Shown in pieces: positions 55,231 to 64,000 of a stretch of DNA of 64,000 nucleotides. Position 1 is the first letter of the stretch, and each line of letters opens with the position of its first letter. The translations under genes were made by a program, and so were the position numbers. The stretch is from Treponema sp. (GTDB lineage: Bacteria; Spirochaetota; Spirochaetia; Treponematales; Breznakiellaceae), in contig JAIRRJ010000069.1 of the NCBI GenBank assembly GCA_031256035.1, positions 1 through 64,000 on the forward strand, given 5' to 3'. Below the pieces are notes generated by a model. It was not told the origin of the DNA, ran no database searches, and saw only the letters and a program-made list of their open reading frames with translations.

Positions 55231-55288
55231 CCGTGAAAAAATGCAAAAGCGTCCATGTGAGTACGGTAGTTTTCGGCTATCATCCATT
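55231..55288. repeat. 58-bp direct repeat, copy A: stray fic 3' end
   Basis: This 58-base segment is identical to 56802-56859 except for one base. On the minus strand it reads WMIAENYRTHMDAFAFFHG, the end of the Fic protein, then runs on to a stop. It overlaps the last codons of the DUF4062/AAA_4 gene, so that gene is flanked by two copies of the fic tail. Confidence 0.85.
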
Positions 55289-56770
55289 GTGAACTTCCCA
55301 ATATCCGCCTTTATCGGGACCAATACGTCTGATAAGACCTTTGATTTTGAGTTTGGAGAGGTTTTCTTTTATTTTACTTGCAGCAATACCAACGATAGAT
55401 GTTAGTTCTTCTATTGTGATATGCGGATTTTGTGCAATACTATTTAATATCAATTGTTGATTTTTAGTTGTCTTTTCTGTCCCCTTTTCTGTCCCCTTTT
55501 CTGTCCCCTTTTCTGTCCCCTTTTCTGTCCCCTTTTCATCATTTACCTTCTCAAAGGCCAGTCCTTTTTTACGATAAATGATTGTTACAAAGCCATCCCG
55601 CATTGTAAATTCCGGCTCCGGTAATCCATGTTCCACACAACGTGCCGTCATATCCTGAATACCGGTACCCATTCTTTCGATGTAACGGGTAAAATAAAAG
55701 GCGTCAGCAATAAGCGGATTTTTTGGATAAGAAGAATGGTCTCTTTTTAGGTCTTCGATAGACAGCTGCGAAGGCAGTTGACCAGGATTACGAATTTCCA
55801 ATCTATCATTAAAAAGCATTATTTGTACGCTTGCAGTACTATCATAATCCCTATGGGCAACAGCGTTTACAATTGCTTCTTCTATTGCCTCGGGCGGTAT
55901 TTCATATGCTGTGGGAACTATCGGACCGTTTGCGCGTGTGCCAATGGCTAAATCTATTTTCGACAGTACAAAATTAACGGCTTGATCAACCAACTCAAAT
56001 AAATTACCTTTGTAAACCTGATAAAACGGAATAGGTTTTTCAACTCTTGTTCCGTGAAAATGGGCGCATTTCACTTCCGATGCTAAGAAAAAACGCTGAG
56101 GCTCCTTTCCAAAAAGAAGTACCGCCGCATTAGTTGGAAATTTTTTATTCAGCAAGTTCAAATGCGTTAGGATTTTTTCTTTGCTATCGTTGACTGTCAG
56201 AGGGAAATTCCGTTCTGTCCCTGCCCGGTTAACAAACCACTCAATTTTTTCGTTGGATAGACTTGCCAATGTTGCATCCCGGTTAGCGCTTTTGTCGAAA
56301 GGCTCAACCCGCAGCTCGCCTTTATCAATCAAAAACGAAATCAAGCTTGAATAAACATTGCTCAAAAGTTCATAGCTGGTGGAAAAGTTGTTGTATATGA
56401 CTTTTCCCGAAACACGCTTGATAAAAGCATCCATTTTGGGGTGCCGTTCGGAGTTTTTTATGTTTAACAAAAACGCCAAACGATATTTGTTGTTTTCTGT
56501 AGCAGCCTCATATTCTTTTTGTGTAGGCGAAACACCGTCTGCCAATTCATAACCATACTCCTTTCCAAGCAAGAGAAGAAAGATATCAGCTTTTATAACT
56601 TCTTCAATGTAAACCTTTTCAGGAATATTGTCTTTCGCCGGAAGATCTTCAAAAACTAACACATCAAAGAATCTTCCAAAAAGAGCATCTTTTCGCAAAT
56701 AATCAGACAACATCCTCCGTTCGCTGGAGAATTCTTTTTGTACACTGCTTATGAAGATTTTATACCGCAT
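55280..56770 (-). CDS. DUF4062 / AAA_4 (Schlafen-like) ATP-binding protein with winged-helix C-terminus
   Basis: The 496-residue protein has a DUF4062 domain (about 1-110; KIFISSVQKEFSSERRML, LLLLGKEYG), an AAA_4/AlbA-type domain (about 190-340; AAVLLFGKEP, HRDYDSTASVQIMLFNDRLEI, RNPGQLPSQLSIEDL), then a C-terminal winged helix (LILNSIAQNPHITIEEL). Between them is a KGTE tetrapeptide repeated five times, encoded by a perfect 12-bp array. Such proteins often accompany defence or toxin systems. The start is 24 bases after the fic stop; the gene is flanked by the two fic-tail repeats. Confidence 0.8.
   Translation of the reverse strand: MRYKIFISSVQKEFSSERRMLSDYLRKDALFGRFFDVLVFEDLPAKDNIPEKVYIEEVIKADIFLLLLGKEYGYELADGVSPTQKEYEAATENNKYRLAFLLNIKNSERHPKMDAFIKRVSGKVIYNNFSTSYELLSNVYSSLISFLIDKGELRVEPFDKSANRDATLASLSNEKIEWFVNRAGTERNFPLTVNDSKEKILTHLNLLNKKFPTNAAVLLFGKEPQRFFLASEVKCAHFHGTRVEKPIPFYQVYKGNLFELVDQAVNFVLSKIDLAIGTRANGPIVPTAYEIPPEAIEEAIVNAVAHRDYDSTASVQIMLFNDRLEIRNPGQLPSQLSIEDLKRDHSSYPKNPLIADAFYFTRYIERMGTGIQDMTARCVEHGLPEPEFTMRDGFVTIIYRKKGLAFEKVNDEKGTEKGTEKGTEKGTEKGTEKTTKNQQLILNSIAQNPHITIEELTSIVGIAASKIKENLSKLKIKGLIRRIGPDKGGYWEVHNG
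55471..55530 (-). repeat. Perfect 12-bp tandem repeat (5 units) inside the DUF4062 gene
   Basis: CTTTTCTGTCCC occurs five times in a row without mismatch. It encodes KGTE units in the linker before the winged helix. As the unit is a multiple of three, changes in copy number alter linker length without shifting the frame. Confidence 0.95.
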
Positions 56771-56794
56771 TATTCTAAAATCAATTCCTTAAAA

Positions 56795-57700
56795 TCAATT
56801 ACCGTGAAAAAATGCAAAAGCGTCCATGTGAGTACGATAGTTTTCGGCTATCATCCATTTTTCCCGCAGGCGAAAAGCTGGGATGCTTTGCCGTTTTGCT
56901 TTGTTTGCGGCAATATTTCCTTTGACGGCATTTTTTACCGCCCACATTGCAAGCGGAACAATTTTTGGACAGGCAAGTATGGTGAGTCTTTTGTGCAACG
57001 ATTCCTGTAACAACAAGGCAAACAAGGCGGTAAATCCGTCATAGTTCATTGTGGTGGGATATGAAACAAAAAGCGGATAGTATTCCCTGAATTTTCCCTT
57101 GTTTTGGACAATTATTGGAGGATAACCAAATTTCATTAGCTGCTGGTTAATAAGAACCCGGCCTATACGTCCATTGCCATCGCAAAAAGGGTGAATAGAT
57201 TCAAATTCAGCGTGGAAGAACGCAATTTTTTCGAGAAAAAATATGCCGTCATCGGTATTGTATTTAGTTAGAAGTTCACTCATCAAATCATTCACAAACA
57301 AAGGATTTGCACCCAAATGATTTCCAACTCGCACCCACTCCTTGCCTGTCCGATACCTGCCGGCGATATTATCATCAATATTTGTAAGCAGCATTTTGTG
57401 CAAATCCAAAATTAATGATGTGCTTAATTCAACAGTGGTGTTTTGCAGCAAATATTCTGTTATCCTTGCCAGGTTTTTTGCTTCGTACACCTCCCGTGTA
57501 TTCGCTTGTTTGGGAACAATATTCTCCAGCAGGATTTTTTCGGTGTCTTCAAGCGTCAGTGTAGAATTTTCTATTGCATTGGAGTTATAAACCATTTCCG
57601 GTATTTCCGCCATTGCTATTTCGTGTAAGACTGGCTCTTTACCAAAAGACAGCTCTATATATAATCGGTAAAGGTTTTCGATTTTTTCTTTTATCGGCAT
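56795..57700 (-). CDS. fic: Fic family protein with N-terminal inhibitory motif
   Basis: The 301-residue protein has the Fic active site HPFCDGNGRIGR (His170) and an upstream SNAIEN motif (Ser40 to Asn45) fitting the (S/T)xxxE(G/N) inhibitory helix, with the inhibitory Glu44. Class II Fic enzymes AMPylate target proteins when not inhibited. The C-terminus (WMIAENYRTHMDAFAFFHG) is duplicated at 55231-55288. It lies 24 bases before the DUF4062/AAA_4 gene, likely in the same transcript, and is bounded upstream by the WecG-type gene. An N-terminal fragment of a close paralogue lies at 53725-53805. Confidence 0.92.
   Translation of the reverse strand: MPIKEKIENLYRLYIELSFGKEPVLHEIAMAEIPEMVYNSNAIENSTLTLEDTEKILLENIVPKQANTREVYEAKNLARITEYLLQNTTVELSTSLILDLHKMLLTNIDDNIAGRYRTGKEWVRVGNHLGANPLFVNDLMSELLTKYNTDDGIFFLEKIAFFHAEFESIHPFCDGNGRIGRVLINQQLMKFGYPPIIVQNKGKFREYYPLFVSYPTTMNYDGFTALFALLLQESLHKRLTILACPKIVPLAMWAVKNAVKGNIAANKAKRQSIPAFRLREKWMIAENYRTHMDAFAFFHGN
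56802..56859. repeat. 58-bp direct repeat, copy B: fic 3' end in place
   Basis: This is the matching segment of the fic gene itself, one mismatch from 55231-55288. The two copies lie 1571 bases apart in direct orientation, so recombination between them would delete the DUF4062/AAA_4 gene. Confidence 0.85.
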
Positions 57701-57729: not shown

Positions 57730-58488
57730 TCATAGGGTTACATTTCTGTTTTCAAATTCAGGCTTATGCCAAATATACTTAAAAAACCTGCATGAATCAA
57801 TTAAACGATTCCAGCGCATCTTGCTTGGCTCCTGATATAACCGGTACAAACCTTCTAGTCCAATTTTCTGAAAAAAAACCGGCGCACGTTTTATTTTTTG
57901 AGAAACAAAATCGAACGTACCTCCGCAGCCAATGGCATACTTTACACCGTTTTCAGAAAGAAACTCTATATTATCGTCTATCCAATATTCTTGTTTGGGA
58001 GCGCCAAATCCGACAAAAAGAATATCAGGTTTAAAAATATTTATTTTTTCCAAACATATAATGTTAAATTTTTCAGAAAAAGGATAATCTTCAAAATCGG
58101 GACTATAACCTTCAATTGAAATATTATACTTTTCTTTAATCACATTAACCGCAGTTTGGTTGCTTTCTTTTTTCCCGCCAAGGAAAAACATTTTATAGTG
58201 TTTCTTTGCAGCGAATTCAGAAAAATCATACACGATATCTGATCCGGCTAATTTTATATATTTTTGATACTTTCCATTAAATAAGCATGCAACAAAGTAT
58301 GGAATTTGACCATCGAATGTAACATAATTGTTATTTAGTATGTCAAAAAATCTTTCCCGAAAATTTGCTCCTACAATGAGTGCTGCATTTACAGGTATTA
58401 TGACTTTAGTTTTTTCATTCTCGCAGTATCCAAGGAGATCAGATTTATTCTTTTGATTGAAATTGATATTACAAAAAAGCATGGACAT
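57730..58488 (-). CDS. WecG/TagA/CpsF-family glycosyltransferase
   Basis: The 252-residue protein fits the WecG/TagA family: VNAALIVGANFRERFFDIL, GQIPYFVACLFNG, MFFLGGKKESNQTAVNVI, LFVGFGAPKQEYWI and AIGCGGTFDFVS. These transfer N-acetylmannosaminuronic acid or ManNAc to a lipid-linked sugar at the membrane. The family's conserved (V/I)D(G/S) aspartate appears in TFDGQIP. It begins the AT-rich part of the surface-glycan locus. The gene after it on this strand is fic, not glycan-related. Confidence 0.88.
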   Translation of the reverse strand: MSMLFCNINFNQKNKSDLLGYCENEKTKVIIPVNAALIVGANFRERFFDILNNNYVTFDGQIPYFVACLFNGKYQKYIKLAGSDIVYDFSEFAAKKHYKMFFLGGKKESNQTAVNVIKEKYNISIEGYSPDFEDYPFSEKFNIICLEKINIFKPDILFVGFGAPKQEYWIDDNIEFLSENGVKYAIGCGGTFDFVSQKIKRAPVFFQKIGLEGLYRLYQEPSKMRWNRLIDSCRFFKYIWHKPEFENRNVTL

Positions 58489-58569: not shown

Positions 58570-59373
58570 CTATCCTTTATGCACATTTCTCAAAAATTGG
58601 GAATATGATGCCGGAACCTGCTCTCCCCATTTTTGGCATTTTATTTTCTTTTCAATATAATCATTTATTGTTTTATTTTGCCTGTAGCTATACTCTCTTA
58701 AGCTGCGTTCTAACTGATTACTTATGCGAAAATTTTGACTTGTTAAAGAGGAGAGTTTTACTGCCAGCGCTAATGCCCTTATAGGCTGCAAATAGGGATA
58801 AGGTGAGTGGGTATAATTAATTTCGATATTTTGATATTCTAACAATGAAAGCCATTTTTCTTTATTGATTATTATTCTTTTTTCAGGATAAGCATAAAGA
58901 ACTGTATTAGCATTAAAATCAATATAACGCAGATATTTTTTCCATGTATCAATATTCTTGTTTCTGTTCAAACAGGCAGCTTTAGAAACTGCGCCTACAC
59001 GCTTCACGGATTTCGATGCATTCTTCGATTTCGAAATATAATGATATTTTCCGTTTATATGGCTTTTCAAAGTCCACAAATCAATTTCACCTAATGTGGA
59101 AGAAATGATTTTTAAACTACCAAAAGTGTTTTTTTGCATTGCGCTTATATACTCATTCATTTTGTATTCAGGATAGCGGCCCATCAATGCTATATCTACA
59201 TCGGGACTTGGAACTTCGACTTTATAATATACGGATATGATGAGATCACGTACGAACCCGCCGACAATAGCCCACTGTCTTTCTTTCAAATCCAATACTT
59301 GGTTAATTTGAAAGGAAACCTTCGATAGTTTGTCTTCAACGCTTTCTATTGCTGTCTGTAATTCTTTTTTCAT
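58570..59373 (-). CDS. Nucleotidyltransferase of the poly(A) polymerase / CCA-adding type
   Basis: The 267-residue protein carries a class II nucleotidyltransferase head: RQWAIVGGFVRDLIISVYY and PSPDVDIALMGRYP, with the two aspartates expected to bind metal. The C-terminal half (INKEKWLSLLEYQNIEI, PYLQPIRALALAVKLSS) only loosely resembles the RNA-binding part of CCA enzymes. A housekeeping CCA enzyme is longer, so this may act on another substrate. Its start overlaps the end of the DHODH-like gene by four bases (ATGA), so the two form a coupled pair within the glycan locus. Confidence 0.6.
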   Translation of the reverse strand: MKKELQTAIESVEDKLSKVSFQINQVLDLKERQWAIVGGFVRDLIISVYYKVEVPSPDVDIALMGRYPEYKMNEYISAMQKNTFGSLKIISSTLGEIDLWTLKSHINGKYHYISKSKNASKSVKRVGAVSKAACLNRNKNIDTWKKYLRYIDFNANTVLYAYPEKRIIINKEKWLSLLEYQNIEINYTHSPYPYLQPIRALALAVKLSSLTSQNFRISNQLERSLREYSYRQNKTINDYIEKKIKCQKWGEQVPASYSQFLRNVHKG

Positions 59374-61163
59374 ACCGAGGCGTCTCTATACAAAAAATTT
59401 GCCAAATACCTATCAAATCCATGATTTAGAAGATTCTTTACCACTACCTCAGGCTTGCTGCGAATATTTATTATTAAATTCTTAATGTCAGCACTTACCG
59501 CTTCATTTACCTCTTTCTTTGCTATCAGCCATATAGGTGAACCGCAATTATACAAAGAATGCCACTTCTTTGATAAATTGTCCGGCATAAGAATAGAATA
59601 AAGATCAGTTAATGGCTTTTTAGCTAATATACCCATATCGTCTTTCCAGCTTATTAACAGTGATGCCAATTCTAATGGCTTTATATAAGTAAATTCATAT
59701 TCCCCCATTTTTTGTATCTCAATTTTCATTTTATCTGAACTTAAACTTTCAAAAAGAAATATTCGTTTAATATCATTCATGTCCTCTGCGACACTCATTA
59801 AAGAATAACATGCATTTCCAATTTTAGAACTTACCCAATCATGATGGATTTTGCAAAAATCATCTTTATAAGCATCAGAAATAATAACACTGTCATATCC
59901 ACCCTTGCTGATTTCTTTTGATGATACTAACTCCGTACAATAATTACCACTTGCCAAACAAAAAGTAAGCGCGTATGAGAGTACAGTTCCATCTGTACCC
60001 GCTAATTTAACAGCACTCTGATTTTTAGTTTCAGGGTAATCATTTTTTAGCAAATCACCATCTTTTGATTCCATTAAGAATGTATCAATTAATTTCTGTG
60101 CTTGGCTGTTTATTGCTTCCACTATTTTTGTCTTATTGATAAAAATATTATTCAACTCTTTAACTTTTTCAGGATTCGAAGTAATAAATTCTCTGAATTC
60201 GGTAAAGTCTCTGCACTTAAAATATTCCAAGCATGCAGAAAGCTGGCACCTTAGCATTTCTATAGAAAATTTTCCCCGCTGTTGGATTAATGAACAAATT
60301 TGAAACGAATTAACCCCAAGAGCAATACAATCAATAATCTCACCTATGCTGGAAATTCCGCCGCTTGCAGATATCCGGCCATTCTTTTCACCGTCAAAGA
60401 TATTATTCAAACTATAGATGAAGTTATAAGTATCAAGAAAAAGGTAATCACCTACAATAACACCATTAAGCAGTGGATTTGGATGCTGAAACGATGAATA
60501 TGACGGCGGCGCTATACATTTTTTTGAATTTGCTACAATAACAACCACGTTATTCTTTTCAATTGTATTGAAAAAAGGTGAGCGGGCTAATTCATCAAGG
60601 AATACTTCCATTTCCCTGCTAAACTTAATAAATTTTGGACGATCGTGAAATACTTTACAAAAATTTTCACAATCATCATTAATCTCACCGATGATTCGAG
60701 CAATATCCTTTTTTCCATCTTCATCCAGACGCAAAGAATACTTTAAATTCAATTCAACAAAATCATATTCGCATCCCCTGGCAAGTGAGACTTTGATATC
60801 TTCATATTCTTCACCCTGCAATACACTTATACCTATCTTTGATGTGGGGAGGATTCTCTTTGCAGCTTTTATCATATCATGAGCTAAACCCGGACCGAAA
60901 AGTTCGGTTTTCTTAGGTCCATCGGCGTACAAGCCAATGTAATTTCCATTCCAATTTTTTACTGCTTTTAATGTACGGCTTTCCTTTTTTTCGCTGTTTT
61001 CCCCTCCGAATTTTTTTGAAATAGTTTTTATTGTTATTGCAGAAGGACTAATGGCTGACAGATGTTCAAAATTATTTGTTCCGGCAGTCAAATGTGAAGA
61101 AGCAACCATGAAAGGATCAGCGAGTTCTAATCCATTTTTTAGCCGTACTTTCAAACTGGACAT
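59370..61163 (-). CDS. DHODH-like FMN domain fused to an unrecognised C-terminal domain
   Basis: The 597-residue protein starts like dihydroorotate dehydrogenase/PreA proteins (LADPFMVASSHLTAG, PSAITIKTISKKFGG, NYIGLYADGPKK, EYDFVELNLKYS) and carries a phosphate/FMN-binding end (ISASGGISSIGEIIDCIALG, then SFQICSLIQQRG). Residues about 390-597 form a second domain (AVKLAGTDGTVLSYALTFCLA, YDSVIISDAYKDDF, LASLLISWKDDMG) not recognised, possibly binding-protein-like. The catalytic Cys/Ser loop is uncertain (LKYSLRL in place of LSCP). It is coupled to the nucleotidyltransferase gene. Pyrimidine synthesis is unlikely given the context; the role is unknown. Confidence 0.62.
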   Translation of the reverse strand: MSSLKVRLKNGLELADPFMVASSHLTAGTNNFEHLSAISPSAITIKTISKKFGGENSEKKESRTLKAVKNWNGNYIGLYADGPKKTELFGPGLAHDMIKAAKRILPTSKIGISVLQGEEYEDIKVSLARGCEYDFVELNLKYSLRLDEDGKKDIARIIGEINDDCENFCKVFHDRPKFIKFSREMEVFLDELARSPFFNTIEKNNVVVIVANSKKCIAPPSYSSFQHPNPLLNGVIVGDYLFLDTYNFIYSLNNIFDGEKNGRISASGGISSIGEIIDCIALGVNSFQICSLIQQRGKFSIEMLRCQLSACLEYFKCRDFTEFREFITSNPEKVKELNNIFINKTKIVEAINSQAQKLIDTFLMESKDGDLLKNDYPETKNQSAVKLAGTDGTVLSYALTFCLASGNYCTELVSSKEISKGGYDSVIISDAYKDDFCKIHHDWVSSKIGNACYSLMSVAEDMNDIKRIFLFESLSSDKMKIEIQKMGEYEFTYIKPLELASLLISWKDDMGILAKKPLTDLYSILMPDNLSKKWHSLYNCGSPIWLIAKKEVNEAVSADIKNLIINIRSKPEVVVKNLLNHGFDRYLANFLYRDASV

Positions 61164-61263
61164 GACATTCCTCTAATTCTGACTGTTAATTTATGCAGTA
61201 TACATTTTATTTTTGCGCTCTGCAAGTCTTTTTACTGACGAAAATTCCAATTGAAACGCTGCA

Positions 61264-62421
61264 TTATGACCCCAAAACATACTCGCAAAACTGCTCACAA
61301 GCATTTCCTGTTTCATAAGAACCCAAATCAGCATGATGTTTTTGTACCGCCTGTTTATATTTCTCCTCATCAAATTGAAGTATATTTTCCATAAGCTGTT
61401 CATTGGTTTCTGCAAGCGGAAACGGCCATTCCTCAATAGGTGTATAAAATCCTTGCTCTTCCTGATATTTTTTTACATCAGGCGCATAAAGAAAACATGG
61501 CTTTTTCATTAATGAAAAATCCCACATTGAAGCTGAATAATCGGTAATTAAAATATCCGTCGCAGAAAGCAATTCCTGCATATCCGGGTATTTTGAAGCA
61601 TTAATTACCCCATCAGGAACGTAATCAAAACTAAAAAAAAGGTGCCCTCTATAAAACAAGATATATTCCCCTCCAAATCTTATCTTTGTATTCTTTATTA
61701 AGTCCTCAACATTAAAAGTGAAATCAAAAGATTCCGGATTAAATGTTGCACCACGATATGTTGGAGCATATAAAATAATTTTTTGTTTTTGATTTAATTT
61801 ATAGTGTTCTGCTATTTTTTTTTTGAACGAACAATCAGTAAACAATATATCATTTCTTGGCATTCCTATTGGCAAAAATTTTTCTGCCGGTGTTATCCAA
61901 TCTTTTGAAAAACATTCTGTAAATTTCCTACATGAGGAAATAACAAAACTGGTTTGTTTTTCTCTAATAACCAATAATGCCATCATATATTGCCTACGTG
62001 CCTTAATGTAAAAAGGAAGCATCAATACATTTGAAAATTTATAAGCTCCACCGCCATGCCATGTATTAATAACCATCTGACCTTTCCTGCCAGGAAAAAT
62101 CGGCTCAATCTCAATATTGCTTACGTAATATTTGGATGTCATAGTGTACCAAACATATCTTAATGATAAAAATCTGACAATTTTTACATTCTTAAACTCA
62201 TCAGGAAATATTTTTTTATCATTTAAACACCAAATATATTGATATGTACTTCCATATTCATTGTAAATGTGTTCAAATAAATATTTAGGATTGCAAGAAT
62301 ATTGTATTCCCCGTTGGCTCACAAAAATGATACGATTCTTATGTATTGGGAAAATATACAATATTACTTTTATTGCCCGTAACATGTATATTATCCCAAG
62401 CCTTAAATATTGCATCAGCAA
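61264..62421 (-). CDS. CDP-glycerol glycerophosphotransferase family protein (TagB/TagF-like)
   Basis: The 385-residue protein has the family signatures NRIIFVSQRGIQYSCNPKYL, VINTWHGGGAYK, FLPIGMPRNDIL, KIILYAPTYRG and DILITDYSASMWDFSLMKKP. These transfer glycerol- or ribitol-phosphate units onto glycans. With the TarI/IspD-type cytidylyltransferase upstream, a phosphopolyol-substituted surface glycan is likely. Start overlaps the epimerase gene stop by seven bases. The last ~25 residues (YETGNACEQFCEYVL) fit the family end. Confidence 0.88.
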   Translation of the reverse strand: MLMQYLRLGIIYMLRAIKVILYIFPIHKNRIIFVSQRGIQYSCNPKYLFEHIYNEYGSTYQYIWCLNDKKIFPDEFKNVKIVRFLSLRYVWYTMTSKYYVSNIEIEPIFPGRKGQMVINTWHGGGAYKFSNVLMLPFYIKARRQYMMALLVIREKQTSFVISSCRKFTECFSKDWITPAEKFLPIGMPRNDILFTDCSFKKKIAEHYKLNQKQKIILYAPTYRGATFNPESFDFTFNVEDLIKNTKIRFGGEYILFYRGHLFFSFDYVPDGVINASKYPDMQELLSATDILITDYSASMWDFSLMKKPCFLYAPDVKKYQEEQGFYTPIEEWPFPLAETNEQLMENILQFDEEKYKQAVQKHHADLGSYETGNACEQFCEYVLGS

Positions 62422-63479
62422 CCAGCCTCTTTAGCTTGACGTAATATCTCTACAGTCTTAATAATTCCATCTCTCATTGAATACTTTGCCCCCCACCCAA
62501 ACTCACTTATTTTTGAGTTGTCCAGCAACGCTTTAGTTACCTTTGAATAACCGGCTGCCTCTGTCACTGATGGCATATCAAAAACAATTTCCTTGCCTGA
62601 GTATTCAGATAAGACAGTTGCTATCTCCAACAACGACAGGCTGCAACTGGAATCAGAAATATTATATGCTTCACCATTTTTCCCGTTCAGCAATAAAACA
62701 AGTAATGCAGAGCATACATCGGCAACATAACAGTATGAATATTGCTGTTCTCCTTTACTCTTCAGAATGATATCCTCACCATTTACCCCTTTTTTTATAA
62801 ACTGGGCGATTGCTTTACTGTCATCAGTCCCCATTGTAGGGCCATAAACACGACAGCAGCGCGCTATTACAACATCAATATTTTTTTCCTTGATGTATGC
62901 CTGGCACAACGCTTCCGCAGCACGTTTGCCTTCGGGATAACCTGCGCGCAATGTATTACAGTCTATATACCCGCAATAATCTTCCCTGAAATTTTCAGTA
63001 TCGCCCCTGTTTTCTCCGTAAATCTCAACTGTAGAAAGAAACAATGTTCGTTTTACATTATGCAATGTAGCGAAATCAAGAATTGATCTTGTCCCAAGCA
63101 TAGAAAGTAAAATTGTGTTTATTGGTTCAGTTGCATATGCAATCGGATGAGTATTGCTTGCCCCATGGATGATATAATCAATATGAAAATCCGCTTCTAT
63201 AGGATTTTGCACATCATGTTGGATAAAAACAAAAAACGGCGTATTAAAATGCTCCTTAAACCGTCCAAAGGCTTTCTCCCCGCTCCTGCCCACTGCATAT
63301 ATGATAATACCATCATTATATTTGGTGTTTCGGTACATCAACAAATCAATTAATAAAGTACCAATTAAGCCTGTTGCACCGGTTATCATTATTTTTTTAT
63401 TTTTCAGCTTACCCCAATCAATATCAATGGAGGCCATTGTGTCAAGGTCTTTTTTATATAACTTATTTGCAGTAAACAA
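62415..63479 (-). CDS. NAD-dependent epimerase/dehydratase
   Basis: The 354-residue protein has an extended SDR fold: NAD-binding GATGLIGTLLIDLL, DYIIHGASNTHPI, the catalytic YPEGKRAAEALCQ (YxxxK) and RCCRVYGPTMG. It changes a nucleotide sugar needed for the glycan. The N-terminus has ~25 residues before the conserved fold, and a later start (MASIDIDWGKL) is possible. It sits 14 bases after the cytidylyltransferase gene and overlaps the transferase gene, all likely in a single transcript. Confidence 0.87.
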   Translation of the reverse strand: MFTANKLYKKDLDTMASIDIDWGKLKNKKIMITGATGLIGTLLIDLLMYRNTKYNDGIIIYAVGRSGEKAFGRFKEHFNTPFFVFIQHDVQNPIEADFHIDYIIHGASNTHPIAYATEPINTILLSMLGTRSILDFATLHNVKRTLFLSTVEIYGENRGDTENFREDYCGYIDCNTLRAGYPEGKRAAEALCQAYIKEKNIDVVIARCCRVYGPTMGTDDSKAIAQFIKKGVNGEDIILKSKGEQQYSYCYVADVCSALLVLLLNGKNGEAYNISDSSCSLSLLEIATVLSEYSGKEIVFDMPSVTEAAGYSKVTKALLDNSKISEFGWGAKYSMRDGIIKTVEILRQAKEAGC

Positions 63480-63492
63480 TCTTATTTGCCTC

Positions 63493-64000
63493 TTATCTTT
63501 TTAACGCTGTATTATCTGAAAGCTTTAACAAGGCTCGAATAATGTCAATATCTTCTACTGTTGTTATTCTTACATTCTTTTCAGAACCAAAAGAAAAATG
63601 CATGGATTCTCCTAATAGTTTTAACAAGGAACAGGATGTTACCGGATTAATTATTTTTCTTTTTTCAGCTTCTTCATGAGCCCACCATAATTTTCCAAGG
63701 CTGAATATTTGCGGAGTTTGCGCTCGCCTGAGCAATTCACGGGGAATTTCCTCGTCAAGAATATTTCCGTCCACGCTTTTGAACACAACTTCGGTACATG
63801 GAATGGCAGCAATAGCTGATCCATATTTTGAATAAACAGAAAGACCATCGGATATTATATCCTGAGATACCATAGGCCGATTCGCATCATGAACCAGAAT
63901 GACATCATCATCGGCACAGTGTTTTTTGAGTTCTGCAAGTCCATTGTGGATAGAATCATGACCGGTTACACCGCCGGAAACCACCCACTTTAACTTACTA
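63493..64000 (-). CDS. TarI/IspD-type cytidylyltransferase, 3' part (5' end outside window)
   Basis: The reading frame is open to the window edge; the visible 169 residues cover the C-terminal two thirds. They show VVSGGVTGHDSIHNGLAEL, DDVILVHDANRPMVS, AIPCTEVVF, RAQTPQIFSLGKL and NVRITTVEDIDIIRALL, typical of IspD/TarI proteins. The context (glycan genes, TagF-like transferase) favours TarI-type synthesis of a CDP-polyol over IspD in isoprenoid synthesis, but both remain possible. Confidence 0.83.
   Translation of the reverse strand, partial: SKLKWVVSGGVTGHDSIHNGLAELKKHCADDDVILVHDANRPMVSQDIISDGLSVYSKYGSAIAAIPCTEVVFKSVDGNILDEEIPRELLRRAQTPQIFSLGKLWWAHEEAEKRKIINPVTSCSLLKLLGESMHFSFGSEKNVRITTVEDIDIIRALLKLSDNTALKR

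Follow-up and report, generated by a model that had tools for sequence, protein, structure and literature searches.

The gene pair described here is best compared with enzymes of several separate families: the PRK07565/NF005741 'dihydroorotate dehydrogenase-like' family together with PyrD and PreA, the prephenate dehydratases (PDTs; PF00800), the PolyA_pol/CCA tRNA nucleotidyltransferases (PF01743, phrog_1614) and, within the same nucleotidyltransferase superfamily, the LicD/FKTN/FKRP-type enzymes and the toxins of the AbiEii/MenT type. Base-reducing flavin barrels are represented by the dihydrouridine synthases and PreA. PDTs normally carry an ACT domain, and the PDT fold is also found in enzymes that no longer aromatise their substrate, one example being BacA, the prephenate decarboxylase of bacilysin synthesis. 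The nucleotidyltransferase superfamily is recognized by the signature hG[GS]...Dx[DE]...h[DE]h. Members of the LicD type occur together with PF04464 enzymes in capsule loci, where they use CDP conjugates (PMC11666461).

The pair, P0001 and P0002, lies near the end of a 64,000-nucleotide stretch (here called the window) at the start of a Treponema sp. contig (JAIRRJ010000069.1). The original prediction, made from the letters of the window, had placed two overlapping genes between a TagF-like and a WecG-type transferase in AT-rich DNA, and each part of this description was borne out by the following features and their composition.

57730 to 58488, minus strand: WecG/TagA-family glycosyltransferase (WecG/TagA/CpsF, PF03808, 2.4e-39)
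58570 to 59373, minus strand: P0002, 267 aa, PolyA_pol-type nucleotidyltransferase with head and neck only
59370 to 59373, minus strand: 4-bp overlap, ATGA, of the P0001 stop codon and the P0002 start codon
59370 to 61163, minus strand: P0001, 597 aa, DHODH-like domain fused to a probable degenerate PDT-like domain
61170 to 61174, minus strand: ribosome-binding site of P0001, AGAGG
61264 to 62421, minus strand: TagF/TarF-like CDP-polyol phosphotransferase (Glyphos_transf, PF04464, 1.5e-68; TarF model, 8.2e-43)
62415 to 63479, minus strand: extended SDR (NAD-dependent epimerase/dehydratase)
63493 to 64000, minus strand: IspD/TarI-like cytidylyltransferase, extending to contig position 64206

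P0001 begins with an ATG codon preceded by AGAGG, and translation of the two genes is likely coupled through the ATGA overlap. The TagF-like gene is located ∼100 bp upstream of P0001 and the WecG-family gene 81 bp downstream of P0002. The GC content of P0001 is 34.3% and that of P0002 33.8%, compared with 46.9% for positions 1-48000 of the window. Beyond the window, the contig encodes a GT2 enzyme, an EpsG-like polymerase, a pyruvyl transferase, a GDSL protein, a radical SAM protein and a flippase (Wzx). The genes from WecG through to the flippase share one orientation and have 26-39% GC, against 47% for positions 1-48000. This low-GC glycan block spans roughly 13 kb and has its composition in common with the pair (GC fractions of 0.34 for P0001 and P0002, 0.32 for TagF, 0.32 for WecG, 0.31 for GT2 and 0.35 for Wzx).

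Parts of the arrangement recur in related genomes. In one relative (G557, L152:5847-8779), an IspD-SDR-TagF trio is encoded whose members are 61%, 57% and 35% identical to those of the window, respectively, on a contig that ends just past TagF, suggesting that the CDP-polyol supply pair (IspD-SDR) is conserved and that the transferases are exchangeable. In another (G465, L154:2081-4074), there is a 4-bp overlap between a LicD-family gene and a TagF-like gene. Given this overlap and the capsule-locus precedent for LicD (PMC11666461), a nucleotidyltransferase gene beside TagF is unsurprising. P0002 belongs to the same superfamily as the LicD/FKTN/FKRP-type enzymes and occupies the same genetic spot, beside TagF and an IspD-like cytidylyltransferase, and a LicD-like role for it is plausible, if unproved. 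The likeness is one of analogy, however, as P0002 has no similarity to a LicD profile (-0.6 bits against a local profile built from just 6 sequences), and identity with LicD was rejected.

P0001 can be divided into two domains and a short tail:

60129 to 61163, minus strand: residues 1-345, DHODH/PRK07565-like TIM-barrel (profile score and alignment to 48 homologues)
59514 to 60002, minus strand: residues 388-550, probable prephenate-dehydratase-like domain (14.8 bits; alignment A1)
59373 to 59513, minus strand: residues 551-597, tail of 47 residues (alignment A1)

A DHODH profile built locally from 48 DHODH-superfamily proteins of related genomes scores 49.8 bits against P0001, where the maximum of 2000 shuffles is 4.7, and the protein matches the NCBIfam models for PreA (1.2e-6), archaeal PyrD (1.3e-6) and PRK07565 (7e-6), in agreement with the DHODH/PreA-like domain originally predicted. 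P0001 nevertheless falls far under the curated cut-offs of DHODH families, with 25-28 bits for the best three models against 303-335, and a Pfam DHODH (PF01180) score of 11.5 against a cut-off of 27. It has the barrel motifs VASSHLTA...KTIS, ELN, IKF, SASGGI and VNSFQIC and the FMN-type lysines K46 and K180 in common with the PRK07565/NF005741 family and PyrD/PreA, but differs from them in its extra insertions, in its fusion to a PDT-like domain, in the loss of the catalytic Cys/Ser and in the absence of an adjoining PyrK-type partner. Alignment with the 48 homologues shows that P17, S22, K46, E137, N139, P176, K180, N212, G269 and G283 are kept, a set that presumably includes the FMN-holding positions of the superfamily; the FMN-type positions K46, N139, K180, N212, G269 and G283 are all retained. 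No catalytic Cys or Ser was found in that alignment at the ELNxSCPN region, which reads ELNLKYSL in P0001. Because the FMN positions are kept and the catalytic residue is gone, P0001 likely binds FMN and is not likely to perform dihydroorotate chemistry.

The C-terminal ∼200 residues of P0001, which the original prediction had called an unrecognised domain, can instead be placed as PDT-like. The resemblance was first read by eye and then tested with profiles: a locally built profile of 30 PDT domains from the same phylum scores 14.8 bits on the domain (maxima of 6.6 and 6.1 in two runs of 2000 shuffles), and splitting the set at random into halves gave profiles that score 17.5 and 11.0. The profile match spans ∼90 residues, and alignment A1 is collinear across the whole domain, with two deletions of ∼7 residues relative to the PDTs. 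Scores of the DHODH, CCA and LicD profiles on the domain do not rise above noise. A MqnA/periplasmic-binding-protein identity was also considered, and the ABC-type PBP2 profile used for it likewise stays at noise level (4.3 vs 5.8). Pfam, NCBIfam and PDB sequence searches with the domain returned nothing credible, PF00800 itself gives no match to P0001 at E ≤ 10 and matches 20 of 20 reference rows, and AlphaFold run without an alignment returned a mean pLDDT of 31.7 for the whole of P0001 and 38.7 for residues 376-597, neither being a reliable model. Resting on locally built profiles only, the assignment of the domain as PDT-like is held with good confidence. The PDT active-site motifs GPxGTF, ENS, SHPQ and TRF are absent from P0001 in alignment A1, which has SPI, SDA and LFES-type residues at the TRF, ENS and SHPQ positions, and the domain probably has the PDT (type-2 binding-protein) fold with PDT chemistry lost. 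It further differs from PDTs in having no ACT domain, the usual place of which appears to be occupied by the tail, and in its fusion to the DHODH-like barrel. No annotation or paper was found for a DHODH-PDT domain combination, which makes the fusion notable even without a mechanism.

The precedent of BacA for a PDT fold that does not aromatise, and the good sense of fusing a flavin reductase to such a domain, could suggest that the two proteins are diverged biosynthetic enzymes making a free small molecule, such as a reduced acid of the chorismate/prephenate type or an antimetabolite, that is exported or used apart from the glycan. With the recognisable PDT active-site motifs lost, no true PDT in the genome and no dedicated ligase or exporter accompanying the pair, this is improbable. 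PF00800 has no match in this genome (G000) or in three relatives from the order, and is matched in 50 of the 60 phylum genomes sampled.

Two short motifs in P0002 define its probable active site:

59194 to 59262, minus strand: residues 38-60, catalytic signature GGFVRD-x14-DVD (D58, D60)
59077 to 59088, minus strand: residues 96-99, EIDL (sequence and family knowledge of the nucleotidyltransferase fold)

The superfamily signature is present as VGG, DVD (D58/D60) and EIDL, in which we take D98 to be the probable third catalytic carboxylate. A local CCA profile scores 11.1 bits against P0002 (best shuffle, 7.2), phrog_1614 is matched at 3.6e-4, and Pfam PolyA_pol reaches 0.037, under its cut-off. 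In alignment with 23 CCA-type proteins, P0002 retains GG, RD, D58-x-D60 and DFxxN, and the part that follows its head can be aligned with the neck of the CCA enzymes. The protein has neither the RRD arginines nor the EDxxR motif for base recognition, and no body/tail domains. P0002 thus has the GGxVRD...DxD head, DFxxN and neck-like helices in common with the PolyA_pol/CCA enzymes, but is only 267 aa long and has 6 extra residues between GG-RD and DxD. The CCA/poly(A)-type nucleotidyltransferase first proposed is thus confirmed, with the refinement that only head and neck are present. HicB/Arc-like matches at residues 212-247 are better explained as a CCA-type neck helix.

The superfamily resemblance to PreA on one side and to PolyA_pol/CCA heads on the other could be taken to mean that the pair modifies nucleotides or RNA and is unrelated to the glycan, the flavin barrel reducing a base and P0002 transferring or trimming nucleotides. 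Such a role is quite improbable, as P0002 is without the body/tail domains, RRD arginines and EDxxR, P0001 is missing the catalytic Cys of DHODH/PreA, and both the PDT-like domain and the location would be left unexplained. A PyrK-PyrD pair (L092) and two PolyA_pol-family genes of ordinary type (contig C110) lie elsewhere in the genome, and because it has its own enzymes of both kinds, neither P0001 nor P0002 is a housekeeping enzyme. These separate genes, together with the motifs and domains missing from P0002, agree with the earlier view that the location accords with neither pyrimidine synthesis nor tRNA maturation.

Searches with P0001 covered 60 relatives, 200 genomes of the family, 394 of the order and 393 of the phylum, searches with P0002 covered 60 relatives and 393 genomes of the phylum, and both proteins were searched for in plasmid and phage records; no homologue was found in any of these. 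Weak matches to P0001 elsewhere were rejected as relatives (at most 98 residues, E ≥ 6e-4), the best of them covering the DHODH part only, in a 337-codon frame. Peptide-pattern scans of viral contigs returned no relative of P0001 or P0002, and GTDB scans returned none for the P0001 pattern and only unrelated chance matches for the P0002 motif, with both kinds of scan detecting close relatives or the exact motif only and being no proof of absence. The lack of homologues and the many altered active-site positions would accord with decaying genes that have no present function, but the two full-length, uninterrupted, overlapping reading frames with a good ribosome-binding site, and the selective retention of fold-critical and cofactor residues, make decay very improbable.

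At 55280-57700, directly after WecG, a Fic-domain gene and a gene for a DUF4062/RecG-C-like ATPase/winged-helix protein lie 25 bp apart, possibly as an accessory or defence pair in the glycan locus; the Fic gene matches the PADLOC candidate PDC-S04 and SoFic models. A defence module was also an option of the original prediction for P0001 and P0002. The pair would then be of a defence or toxin-antitoxin-like kind and sit in a variable glycan locus, with P0002 as nucleotidyltransferase toxin or signal synthase and P0001 as sensor, partner or effector; the proximity of the Fic and DUF4062 genes would fit this, as would the orphan, patchily distributed and AT-rich character of the pair. Superfamily and two-gene layout are also common to the nucleotidyltransferase toxins of the AbiEii/MenT type, but the partner of P0002 is enzyme-like and belongs to no antitoxin family. 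The option is unlikely: no PADLOC model is matched by P0001 or P0002, P0001 is built like a metabolic enzyme, no relatives were found in the viral, plasmid and phage searches, and the composition of the pair equals that of the glycan block.

The explanation that we prefer, while holding it tentatively, builds on the established gene anatomy, DHODH homology, nucleotidyltransferase signature, and operon and compositional context: P0001 and P0002 may form an accessory cassette that came in with the low-GC surface-glycan block and whose products synthesise a non-sugar substituent and add it to a surface polymer of the CDP-polyol/teichoic type. The 4-bp overlap and the single co-directional run with IspD, SDR, TagF and WecG argue for it, and the likely coupled genes, on one strand and at the low GC of the WecG-to-Wzx block, favour the glycan-locus role that had been among the first proposals. 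Counting against it are the failure to find homologues in the genomes searched, the low LicD score of P0002 and the fact that the genes of an independent mobile cassette could be just as close together and AT-rich. Because the PDT fold is probably kept and PDT chemistry lost, the PDT-like domain of P0001 would bind a small carboxylic acid or position a substrate for the flavin domain, and the DHODH-like barrel would bind FMN and run a redox step on that small molecule. The translationally coupled P0002 would then activate or attach the small molecule by transferring a nucleotidyl or phospho-X group, using an NTP or a CDP donor from the IspD-like/SDR pair, a step modelled by analogy on the LicD/FKRP-type nucleotidyltransferases that use CDP donors beside TagF-type enzymes. 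The flavin-barrel step and the PDT-held acid draw on fold and residue conservation, and the remaining mechanism on genetic context.

A more specific form of the preferred explanation, and a rather unlikely one, is that the locus encodes an undescribed flavin-dependent decoration pathway for CDP-polyol-type polymers, in which a reduced carboxylic substituent would be produced or presented by the DHODH-PDT fusion and transferred to the glycan by a minimal PolyA_pol-type nucleotidyltransferase playing a part like that of LicD. If true, cell-surface polymer synthesis would have recruited together an enzyme of the flavin reductase type and a nucleotidyltransferase of the PolyA_pol type, which would widen the known chemistry of teichoic-type glycans and place a second nucleotidyltransferase lineage there beside LicD/FKRP.

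Two further observations concern the glycan block and its neighbourhood. The genes for the polysaccharide pyruvyl transferase, the GDSL-like protein and the radical SAM protein (L011:6425-9293) suggest further unusual decorations. A DUF3990 gene and a gene for a fused NTase_sub_bind and Polbeta nucleotidyltransferase (L011:12869-14258) are located between the glycan genes and a DegT aminotransferase gene.
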